Shown here: one piece after another, positions 1 to 3,253 of the stretch
How positions within the stretch are numbered: the first letter of the stretch is position 1
Layout of the letters: each line of letters begins with the position of its first letter
Source of the DNA: Pedobacter sp.
Lineage (GTDB): Bacteria > Bacteroidota > Bacteroidia > Sphingobacteriales > Sphingobacteriaceae
DNA: 44,115 bases
NCBI GenBank assembly: GCA_014378705.1
Contig: JACMND010000039.1
Coordinates: 1 to 44,115, forward strand
Direction of reading: 5' to 3'
Translations under genes and position numbers: made by a program
Notes under the pieces: generated by a model
Told to the model about the DNA's origin: nothing
Database searches by the model: none
The model's input: the letters and a program-made list of their open reading frames with translations, nothing else

Positions 1-1057
1 TGAATTTATTTTTGGCGGCATTGCGTTAAATAACGCTAACATGATACTGGCAGGTGCAATTCCTGCGGCATTACTTGCTATTTTGTTTGACTTTCTGCTT
101 TCGCGATTGCAAAAGCTCAATTTTAAAATCTTAAAAACAGCGATTTTAATTTCGGGTTTTACTCTGATCTTATTCTCTGTTATTTATTTTATCCCGGTTA
201 TTAAACCCGGAAAACTGCTTGCCGGTTTTACACCAGAATTTATGGGCAGGCAGGATGGTTATCTTGGATTAAAAGAAAAATACAAACTAAACATCCGCAC
301 GGTAGTGATCAGCGATGCGGTAATGTATAAAGCCGCCTTTGAAAAAGAGTTGGATGTGATCAGCGGCTATTCCACTGATGGCCGTCTAAAAGCTTTTGAT
401 CTGGTGGTTCTTGAAGATGATAAGGGGATTTTTCCGCCTTACTATGCGGCTCCCATCATCAACACAAGCACTCTTAGAAAATTTCCTGAACTGGAGCCGG
501 TGCTGAACCTTCTGGCTGAAAAAATTAATGATTCAATAATGACCGATCTTAATTACCGGGTTGATTATCTGCACCAGCAACCAGAAAAAGTAGCTAAAGA
601 ATTTCTTTCAGGGATCGGTTTATTGAAGCCTTCTAAAGCCGGCAAAAAAGGAAAGATCAGAATAGGTTCGAAAATATTCGGTGAGCAGTACATCCTGGCC
701 AATATGTATAAAATGCTTATAGAAGGAAATACAGAATTATCTGTGGAAACTAAAACCGGTTTGGGTGGGACAAAAATCTGTTTCGATGCCTTAACCAACA
801 ACCAAATAGATCTTTACCCTGAATATTCGGGAACCGGATTATTGGTTATTTTAAACTCACCTCAAAAAATTGTAAACTCATTAAAAACCAAAGAAAAGGT
901 TTTTAAATATGTAAAAGATGAATTCGCGAAACGATACGCAATCACCTGGCTTAAACCCATTGGTTTCAATAACGCCTATGCATTAATGATGCGCAGCAAA
1001 CAATCGGAGGAATTAAAGGTTAAAAACATTTCTGACCTAAGTAATTACCTTAAATAA
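1..1057 (+). CDS. ABC transporter permease/substrate-binding fusion, EgtU/OpuC type, 5' partial
   Basis: The frame is already open at base 2, so the permease part lies mostly outside the window. What remains is the permease end (NMILAGAIPAALLAILFDFLL), a further membrane segment (about residues 31-54, counting from the Met at 41) and an extracytoplasmic binding domain of the glycine betaine/choline/ergothioneine family. The domain halves are in reversed order. The usual C-terminal half comes first (residues 58-197: AGFTPEF, VISGYSTDGR, LEDDKG, PPYYAAP), then a Lys/Gly linker, then the usual N-terminal half (204-338: IRIGSKIFGEQYILA, GLGGT, IDLYPEYSGTG, LKPIGFNNAYAL). The gene ends just where the second half normally continues. 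It lies 6 bp before egtB, so ergothioneine is the likely substrate, by analogy with EgtU. Betaine or choline remains possible. Confidence 0.85.
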   Translation, partial: EFIFGGIALNNANMILAGAIPAALLAILFDFLLSRLQKLNFKILKTAILISGFTLILFSVIYFIPVIKPGKLLAGFTPEFMGRQDGYLGLKEKYKLNIRTVVISDAVMYKAAFEKELDVISGYSTDGRLKAFDLVVLEDDKGIFPPYYAAPIINTSTLRKFPELEPVLNLLAEKINDSIMTDLNYRVDYLHQQPEKVAKEFLSGIGLLKPSKAGKKGKIRIGSKIFGEQYILANMYKMLIEGNTELSVETKTGLGGTKICFDALTNNQIDLYPEYSGTGLLVILNSPQKIVNSLKTKEKVFKYVKDEFAKRYAITWLKPIGFNNAYALMMRSKQSEELKVKNISDLSNYLK

Positions 1058-1063
1058 TTATAA

Positions 1064-2251
1064 ATGATACTTCAAAAGTACAAGGATATCAGGCAGCATT
1101 CAGTCATGATTTGTAGCTCTTTGAAAACAGAAGATTATGTTGTGCAGCCGGTTGTTGATGTTAGTCCGCCTAAATGGCATCTTGGCCACACCACCTGGTT
1201 TTTTGAAACATTCATACTCAAGCCTTTTGCAAACGGATACCGCGAATTCGACCCGAACTACAATTATGTTTTTAATAGTTATTACGAAACCATCGGAGCC
1301 CGTGTAATTCGTACAGACCGTGGAAATTTGAGCCGTCCGGGTGTGGAAGATGTTTACCGATACCGGTACTATGTGGACGAAGCGATGGCCGATTTTTTGC
1401 GATCTGAGTCTTTAACAATGCAGCAAAAAGAGTTATTGGAACTCGGATTAAACCATGAGCAACAGCATCAGGAACTGCTTTGCACAGATATAAAATATAT
1501 TCTGGGCCACAATCCCTTATTTCCGGCTTATTCAGCTTTGCCAATTGTGAAGTTTGAGCTTGCAGGCGAAGAAGATGATGAAGGGATCATTTTCGATCAA
1601 AATTTTAACAATAGTTTGATTGATATTCCGGAAGGGGTCTATGAAATTGGATATGAGGGTTCCGGTTTTTGTTTTGATAATGAATTGGGAAGGCATAAAG
1701 TTTATCTCCAAAATTTTTCGATCAGTACTACCTTAGTTTCCAACCAAGAGTTTCTTGAATTTATTAATGATGGGGGCTACCGCGATTTTAAACACTGGCA
1801 TGCAGATGGCTGGGAATGGGTTAAAACAAAAGCAGCATCTGCTCCATTGTATTGGCATTTAATTGACGCTGAATGGTTTAATTATACCTCTCAAGGATTA
1901 AAACCATTAGCGGTGGCTGACCCTTTATGTCATATTTCTTATTATGAAGCTTCTGCTTATGCTTCCTGGAAAGGGATGCGCTTGCCAACTGAGTTTGAAT
2001 GGGAAATTGCCGCTAGGAAGTTTGAATGGGGCAAACGCTGGGAATGGACAGAAAGTGCTTATCTGCCTTATCCCGGCTTTAAAAAAGTTCCCGGCGCTAT
2101 CGGAGAATACAATGGAAAATTTATGATTAACCAGATGGTTTTGAGAGGTGCTTCAGAAGTGACTTCACCTGATCATAGCCGAATTACTTACCGTAATTTC
2201 TTTCAACCTGAATTACGCTGGCAGTATACGGGCATCAGACTGGCAAAATAG
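1064..2251 (+). CDS. egtB: Ergothioneine biosynthesis protein EgtB (iron-dependent sulfoxide synthase)
   Basis: EgtB is a non-heme iron enzyme that uses O2 to join a cysteine-type thiol to the imidazole C2 of trimethylhistidine (hercynine), giving a sulfoxide. The N-terminal DinB-like helical domain carries the three likely iron-binding histidines, H42 (in HLGHTTWF), H131 and H135 (in NHEQQHQE). From about residue 186 to the end is a formylglycine-generating-enzyme/sulfatase-modifying fold (LPTEFEWEIAAR, GASEVTS, RITYRNFF, YTGIRLAK). At 395 residues it is slightly shorter than the mycobacterial enzymes. No EgtA or EgtC glutamyl-pathway gene is visible, so the enzyme may use free cysteine; that is inference. 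It starts 6 bp after the transporter and ends 3 bp before egtD. SenA and OvoA share this fold, but the neighbouring EgtD favours EgtB. Confidence 0.93.
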   Translation: MILQKYKDIRQHSVMICSSLKTEDYVVQPVVDVSPPKWHLGHTTWFFETFILKPFANGYREFDPNYNYVFNSYYETIGARVIRTDRGNLSRPGVEDVYRYRYYVDEAMADFLRSESLTMQQKELLELGLNHEQQHQELLCTDIKYILGHNPLFPAYSALPIVKFELAGEEDDEGIIFDQNFNNSLIDIPEGVYEIGYEGSGFCFDNELGRHKVYLQNFSISTTLVSNQEFLEFINDGGYRDFKHWHADGWEWVKTKAASAPLYWHLIDAEWFNYTSQGLKPLAVADPLCHISYYEASAYASWKGMRLPTEFEWEIAARKFEWGKRWEWTESAYLPYPGFKKVPGAIGEYNGKFMINQMVLRGASEVTSPDHSRITYRNFFQPELRWQYTGIRLAK

Positions 2252-2254
2252 ACG

Positions 2255-3253
2255 ATGGAAAACCGAACGGAATTACTTGCAAATGAAGCTGAAATGATGG
2301 TCAGCAAAACGGAAACCTTTTTACAGGATGTACTAAAAGGGCTGAACGCTGAGCCGAAATATCTGGAATCGAAATATTTTTACGACTCAATTGGCGACGG
2401 TCTTTTTCAGCAAATAATGCGAAGCCCTGAATATTATCCTACCAACTGCGAACTGGAGATTTTTTCTTTACAAACCGATGAAATTACAAAAGTTTTTACA
2501 AAAGACAGCCAAGCGTTTGACCTTGTTGAGTTGGGTGCAGGAGATGCTTTAAAATCTGCATATCTACTTCAAAACCTGGTGAAAAAAAAATCAGACTTCA
2601 CTTACTATCCTATAGACATTTCTGAAAATGTAATTGCCGGCCTCCATAAAAACCTGCCTGATCGGATAAAAGGTCTGAAGATCCATGGTTTAAATGGTGA
2701 GTATTTTAATATGCTCCAAAAGGTCAATAACATTTCTAGAAGAAAAAAAATAGTTCTCTTCCTGGGATCAAATATCGGAAACATGCATCCTGAAGATGCT
2801 TTAAGGTTTTGCGGAAAGCTTAGGGATCATTTATCATCAGGAGACCTGTTATTAATTGGTTTTGATTTGAAAAAAGACCCTCAAACCATATTGAACGCTT
2901 ATAACGACAAACAGGGTTATACCAGGGATTTTAACCTGAACCTGCTTAACAGAATTAATAAAGAGTTAGGCGGGAACTTTAACACAGACAATTTTAAACA
3001 TTATCCGACCTACGATCCCGAAACGGGTGCCTGTAAAAGTTACCTGGTTAGTACCCGTGACCAGAAAGTACGAATAGAAGCCGCGGACGTGGAGATCGGG
3101 TTTGAAAAGAACGAATGTATCCATACAGAAATCTCCCAAAAATACGACAAGGAAGAGATTGACCGGCTGGCTGGTGTTACCGGATTTACCATTGTTGATT
3201 CTTTTTATGATTCCAGGAAATGGTTTTTAGATGCAGTTTGGTTGGTAGGTTAA
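2255..3253 (+). CDS. egtD: L-histidine N-alpha-methyltransferase EgtD
   Basis: EgtD transfers three methyl groups from S-adenosylmethionine to the alpha-amino group of histidine, making hercynine, the substrate of EgtB. At 332 residues it has the normal family length. Visible family features are the N-terminal YFYDSIGDGLFQQI and SPEYYPTNCE segments, the SAM-binding VELGAGDALKSAYLL near residues 90-105, YYPIDISENVI, and LFLGSNIGNM. The C-terminal part contains the beta-rich substrate lid ending with SFYDSRKWFLDAVW. It follows egtB after 3 bp and is the last gene of the operon. I see no clear terminator after it. EgtE, the PLP lyase for the last step, is not in the window and may be elsewhere or replaced by another beta-lyase. 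Confidence 0.93.
   Translation: MENRTELLANEAEMMVSKTETFLQDVLKGLNAEPKYLESKYFYDSIGDGLFQQIMRSPEYYPTNCELEIFSLQTDEITKVFTKDSQAFDLVELGAGDALKSAYLLQNLVKKKSDFTYYPIDISENVIAGLHKNLPDRIKGLKIHGLNGEYFNMLQKVNNISRRKKIVLFLGSNIGNMHPEDALRFCGKLRDHLSSGDLLLIGFDLKKDPQTILNAYNDKQGYTRDFNLNLLNRINKELGGNFNTDNFKHYPTYDPETGACKSYLVSTRDQKVRIEAADVEIGFEKNECIHTEISQKYDKEEIDRLAGVTGFTIVDSFYDSRKWFLDAVWLVG

Follow-up and report, generated by a model that had tools for sequence, protein, structure and literature searches.

A reversed, permease-fused substrate-binding domain encoded beside ergothioneine genes in Bacteroidota

Type I ABC importers follow a cycle in which the binding domain closes on its ligand and docks onto the dimeric permease, and release to the inside is powered by ATP. 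Within the betaine importers, docking has been described for OpuA of Lactococcus lactis, where both lobes of a single docked domain make contact with the two permease copies and the tether consists of an anchor helix and a further 11 residues (PMC11065425). OpuAC of Bacillus subtilis is a known circular permutant relative to ProX (PMC2395249). In the ergothioneine importer EgtU, G244 and F293 (with Y337) mark the ergothioneine-specific group, and the exchange G244F in pneumococcal EgtUC lowers the affinity for ergothioneine about 100-fold (PMC9732360). Firmicutes EgtU-type proteins are built in the order permease, N-terminal half, C-terminal half of the binding domain (permease-N-C). Here we describe a protein of Pedobacter sp. 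with the order permease-C-N, encoded at the beginning of a 44,115-nucleotide stretch of DNA (assembly GCA_014378705.1, contig JACMND010000039.1; hereafter the window). We consider it probable that this protein is a permuted, permease-fused type I importer, most likely for ergothioneine or a close histidine betaine.

The permuted domain starts with GKLLAGFT, and the protein ends with ISDLSNYLK, where the chain of EgtUC would go on (Table 1). The Pfam model PF04069 (OpuAC) matches two stretches of a single frame, model positions 115-256 (residues 72-203) preceding positions 2-113, with E-values of 6.8e-29 and 1.1e-24 that rule out chance. Together the stretches cover positions 2-256 in reversed order, scoring about 188-189.3 bits for the sequence as written versus a cut-off of 21.2. 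As a control, both halves were rotated back, which resulted in a single continuous OpuAC match of 202.9 bits compared with 189.3 bits unrotated, and in a continuous full-length alignment with pneumococcal EgtUC. Since rotation yields one continuous match at a higher score, the permutation is real: the binding domain is a circular permutant, arranged as permease, anchor helix, C-terminal half and N-terminal half. In a search of PDB sequences, pneumococcal EgtUC was the top match, its residues 137-276 aligning with query residues 70-209 and residues 6-133 with 217-347. The sequence-only reading had proposed such a reversal of the order seen in EgtU, OpuC and OsmF, together with a fusion to an EgtU/OpuC-type permease. 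Both proposals hold, as those proteins are in normal order and the permease HMM of the relatives matches residues 1-241 of the complete protein, joined as described below.

Table 1. Features at the start of the window (positions of the window; residue numbers of the 3' gene part, EgtU equivalents in brackets).
Feature	Position	Strand	Evidence
3' gene part, fused permease/permuted substrate-binding protein	2..1057	+	351 codons plus stop, no internal stop
Permease end, BPD_transp_1-type domain	2..136	+	Permease HMM of relatives; Pfam BPD_transp_1 in L058
Extra membrane helix, anchors binding domain	about 137..202	+	Hydrophobic segment; model of relative L058
C-terminal half of OpuAC/EgtUC domain, first in chain	209..628	+	Pfam 115-256; EgtUC 137-276
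Lys/Gly-rich linker, 7 residues, joins original C and N termini	629..649	+	
N-terminal half of OpuAC/EgtUC domain, last in chain	650..1054	+	Pfam 2-113; EgtUC 6-133
F226 (EgtU G244), AfProX-like	677..679	+	Site mapping, 83 homologues; PMC9732360
Y275 (EgtU F293), AfProX-like	824..826	+	Site mapping, 83 homologues
F322 (EgtU Y337), AfProX-like	965..967	+	Site mapping, 83 homologues
egtB, ergothioneine biosynthesis	1064..2251	+	TIGR03440, 536.6 bits (cut-off 360); 6 bases past transporter stop
egtD, histidine N-alpha-methyltransferase	2255..3253	+	TIGR03438, 294.5 bits (cut-off 290.9); Methyltransf_33

Within its genome, the window corresponds to contig C150, whose edge cuts the transporter gene. 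The 5' part (first ~168 codons) was found on another contig of the genome, C93, with its Met at C93:644 on the minus strand. The end of C93 and the window start (1-141) are identical over 141 bases, a typical k-mer break, which places the operon on two contigs of this assembly. Joining them in frame leads to a protein of 519 residues, similar in size to its relatives. A window that begins at a contig edge within the gene invites the suspicion, voiced already in the sequence-only reading, that an assembly error fused two fragments. The probability of such an artefact is practically nil: the reversed junction is in frame and well inside the window contig, independent of the C93 join, and the same full-length arrangement recurs in 12 of 100 sampled relatives (65-78% identity). 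It was likewise found in 80/80 named Bacteroidota loci among the matches listed, originating from separate assemblies that include type strains, and beyond these loci in further families and in a second class within the phylum. These relatives rule out an assembly join as the source of the reversed order.

The 80 loci belong to a scan of GTDB genomes that confirmed at least 423 candidates, at least 80 of them in named loci, and include Mucilaginibacter, Pedobacter, Daejeonella, Hufsiella, Segetibacter and Parafilimonas. The search for relatives suggested by the earlier reading thereby turned up many, across several families. The reversed form was present in 22 of 395 Bacteroidota genomes, several of them in the second class. 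A normal-order domain in a similar fusion occurred in 31 of the 395, located at the permease N terminus in each one opened, and the two forms were found together in none. The N-C-permease form apparently represents a parallel solution, and in these genomes the two forms exclude each other. In the examined set, 95 proteins were permease-C-N, 27 N-C-permease and four permease-N-C. On the permease tree, the reversed group forms one side of a branch with support 86/88, suggesting one origin within the phylum; the tree of the binding domain alone is compatible with a single origin and does not resolve it. A tandem intermediate with more than two half-domains per frame was not found among 127 proteins. 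A plasmid origin was rejected, since the plasmid search gave no close relatives and a best match of only 43% identity, to the normal-order EgtU type of Firmicutes. A phage origin was discarded as well, the matching phage records (Listeria, Staphylococcus, Enterococcus) appearing to be host DNA.

The AlphaFold2 model of the window's domain, calculated with 34 relatives, reached a pLDDT of 85. Computation showed that the predicted fold closes into a binding domain of two lobes whose topology is that of B. subtilis OpuAC. High-scoring end-to-end structural matches were obtained only to this protein (2B4M: Z 20.1, rmsd 3.1, 242 residues, 14% identity); those next in rank had Z of about 9, and the sequential structural alignment with EgtUC, at 48% identity, covered 141 columns, about half. 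Comparison with L. lactis OpuA, for which an OpuAC sequence identical to 2B4L was used, places the OpuAC cut after SIEDL and before the strand KTIIGI. The chain of the present protein is opened at the same place (ISDLSNYLK / GKLLAGFT). As the sequence-only reading remarked, rearranged order has been noted among betaine-binding proteins; OpuAC (2B4L) is such a case and has the same cut.

This identical cut is what speaks for the reversed order having been inherited from a permuted OpuAC, or being ancestral altogether, with EgtU, OpuC and AfProX as the rearranged proteins. We regard this explanation as very improbable, since every F-III relative with a solved structure, like the N-C-permease proteins of Bacteroidota, has the normal order, and since 2B4L was absent from the PDB sequence hits up to an E-value of 0.01, among which AfProX, OpuBC and OsmF were present. 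Origin from OpuAC was thus rejected on sequence, consistent with the low identity of the structural alignment. Relative to the F-III proteins of solved structure, computation showed the reversed order to be derived. The reversed order can be called standard for the Bacteroidota clade that carries it, though not for the family at large, which answers the objection raised beforehand that it might be the family norm. With a sequence in the EgtU/AfProX branch and the same cut as OpuAC, we infer that the same permutation happened twice, separately in the two lineages. The permuted topology as such is not new; what is new is that it recurred independently in the EgtU branch and that the domain is covalently fused to a permease.

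As the C-terminal half is placed first after the anchor helix, the membrane tether enters lobe D2 rather than D1 (lobe limits from PMC9732360). That the permutation changes how the domain is held over the permease is plausible, and the change of the tethered lobe itself follows from the sequence. The tether from the anchor helix to the domain comprises only about 5 residues; in the model of the full-length relative L058, the helix 209-236 directly precedes the first strand at 241. Between the halves, the linker is seven residues long in 81 of 95 homologues. A full-length model (pLDDT 75.6, pTM 0.57) was too uncertain to position the domain over the permease. To us, the chances are evenly balanced that the rearrangement is a neutral relic of tandem duplication and deletion, with a domain that docks and works as normal, an account that fits either ligand discussed below. 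OpuA-type docking spreads the lobes over both permease copies, so either may serve for tethering (PMC11065425), and OpuAC is a permutant with normal ligand binding. Against this, the short tether and linker hold the lobe close, and the identity of the lobe could matter. The long conservation of the reversed order fits the neutral and the functional view alike.

In the joined stretch, an ABC ATPase and a pyridine nucleotide-disulfide oxidoreductase are encoded upstream of the transporter. For the ATPase, a ProV family model matches best, below its cut-off. The link to ergothioneine genes, already proposed from the window, was substantiated by its recurrence: EgtB adjoins the transporter in 77 of 80 listed loci, mostly a few bases downstream, EgtD is present in 76/77, and the ATPase precedes in 75/79. 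Distant reversed forms (L192, L193, L142, L199) have egtB/egtD nearby in other gene orders, and some members of the reversed family are without adjacent egt genes (L138, L140, L141, L194-L196). EgtB was detected in 19 of the 22 genomes with the reversed form versus 93 of 373 others (Fisher p 8e-9, kinship ignored). Within the genus of the window, the transporter occurred in 3/5 genomes with EgtB and 0/15 others. A similar co-occurrence was observed for the N-C-permease form, with EgtB in 25 of its 31 genomes; these proteins (L143-L157, L200-L211, other Bacteroidota) have F244, Y293, F337 and N339.

Several side observations concern neighboring genes. The oxidoreductase (L016:1604-2986, minus strand; contig C93) comes first in the operon in 62 of the 75 listed loci. 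It is MerA/RclA/lipoamide-dehydrogenase-like, scores below the equivalog cut-offs of the NCBIfam models it matches best, and possibly acts as an ergothioneine-disulfide or related reductase. A 25% identical flavoprotein lies alongside a plasmid EgtU-type locus of Ligilactobacillus (L188). No egtE was seen in the window's operon; in one relative, an enzyme of the class I/II aminotransferase fold is encoded next after the egt/transporter genes (L193:3558-4730, minus strand) and is a candidate for the C-S lyase step. On a Rhizobium plasmid (L190:1137-3789), an F-III binding protein adjoins a gene named histidine ammonia-lyase-like from sequence reading only, a pair that may possibly serve the breakdown of ergothioneine or hercynine.

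For evaluation of the ligand pocket, sites in EgtU numbering were mapped onto EgtUC over 83 close homologues. K242, T275, T296, N339, Y341, E375, R379, Y419 and Y443 are invariant (83/83), and all 83 carry the hallmarks of cluster F-III, i.e., a cage of Y341, Y419 and Y443, a fourth aromatic residue at 293 and N/D at 339. The cage base is N339 as in EgtU, versus D109 in AfProX. The EgtU-specific G244, F293 and Y337 are replaced by F, Y and F in 83, 83 and 82 of the 83 homologues, respectively, and the domain order departs from the permease-N-C order of EgtU. "EgtU" as an ergothioneine-specific name is not earned by a pocket without these three residues. The residues predict a carboxylated betaine as ligand; they do not predict ergothioneine. 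Five reversed forms of one family in the second class (L139, L197, L198, L199, L212) have Q at the position of G244 and A at 273, by which the pocket varies within the reversed clade.

From these data, we propose that the protein serves a type I ABC importer as its membrane subunit, with its permuted binding domain fused to the permease, its ATPase encoded just upstream and a probably ordinary type I transport cycle. Its substrate would be a quaternary amine with a carboxylate group, ergothioneine or a closely related histidine betaine, e.g., hercynine, being most likely, and its role would be the recovery or scavenging of ergothioneine by ergothioneine-producing Bacteroidota. Based on the egtB/egtD linkage and the co-occurrence with EgtB, a histidine betaine is the favored ligand, a preference we hold with modest assurance; ergothioneine itself is a putative ligand. 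The pocket raises the competing explanation that the permuted importer serves for uptake of glycine betaine or a different osmolyte and owes its place in the egt operon to shared stress regulation. AfProX-like residues at all three EgtU-specific positions, the loss of affinity caused by G244F in pneumococcal EgtUC and the ProV-like ATPase agree with this explanation. We consider it unlikely, though a serious contender, as the egtB/egtD linkage survives changes in gene order and recurs in separate families, the cage bottom is that of EgtU rather than AfProX, and the N-C-permease form, sharing the same pocket residues, also occurs with EgtB.

The histidine betaine reading points to an importer in organisms carrying their own ergothioneine-making genes. 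Its pocket would need to accommodate a histidine betaine while lacking the residues regarded as determining specificity for ergothioneine. In the open-access literature, absence from which is weak evidence, no permuted permease-fused binding domain was found described, and the protein apparently represents a large, undescribed architectural variant of EgtU/OpuF-type importers. One transporter family thereby comprises three tethering layouts (permease-N-C, N-C-permease, permease-C-N), making the effect of which lobe is tied to the ABC permease directly testable. To the combined reading, i.e., a second independent permutation at the OpuAC site, a permease tether at the opposite lobe and an importer retrieving ergothioneine or hercynine with a non-EgtU pocket, we would give an even chance.

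Among known systems, OpuA (OpuABC) of L. lactis (7AHD) shares the C-terminal binding domain following an anchor helix and a short linker, but is a Trp-cage glycine betaine binder in normal order. OpuAC (2B4L/2B4M) is permuted with its chain opened at the same place and is the best end-to-end structural match; it differs by a lipid membrane tether instead of a permease fusion, by belonging to the Trp-cage subfamily and by the lack of any significant sequence similarity found. AfProX of Archaeoglobus fulgidus (1SW1/1SW2) belongs to the same subcluster F-III and has the same residues at the three positions differing from EgtU, whereas it is a stand-alone protein in normal order with D109 where the present protein has N. 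The N-C-permease fusions of other Bacteroidota (e.g., L146, L155, L200) share the pocket residues and the co-occurrence with EgtB, yet carry a normal-order domain at the permease N terminus. EgtU (EgtUBC) of Streptococcus pneumoniae and other Firmicutes (PMC9732360; 7TXK/7TXL) is likewise a single chain of permease, anchor helix and binding domain, has a separate ATPase gene, a complete betaine cage and carboxylate ligands, and is the top sequence match of both halves. It differs in its N-C order, as opposed to C-N here, and in G244/F293/Y337 in place of F/Y/F; the EgtU bacteria studied are importers not making ergothioneine, whereas here egtB and egtD are part of the operon.
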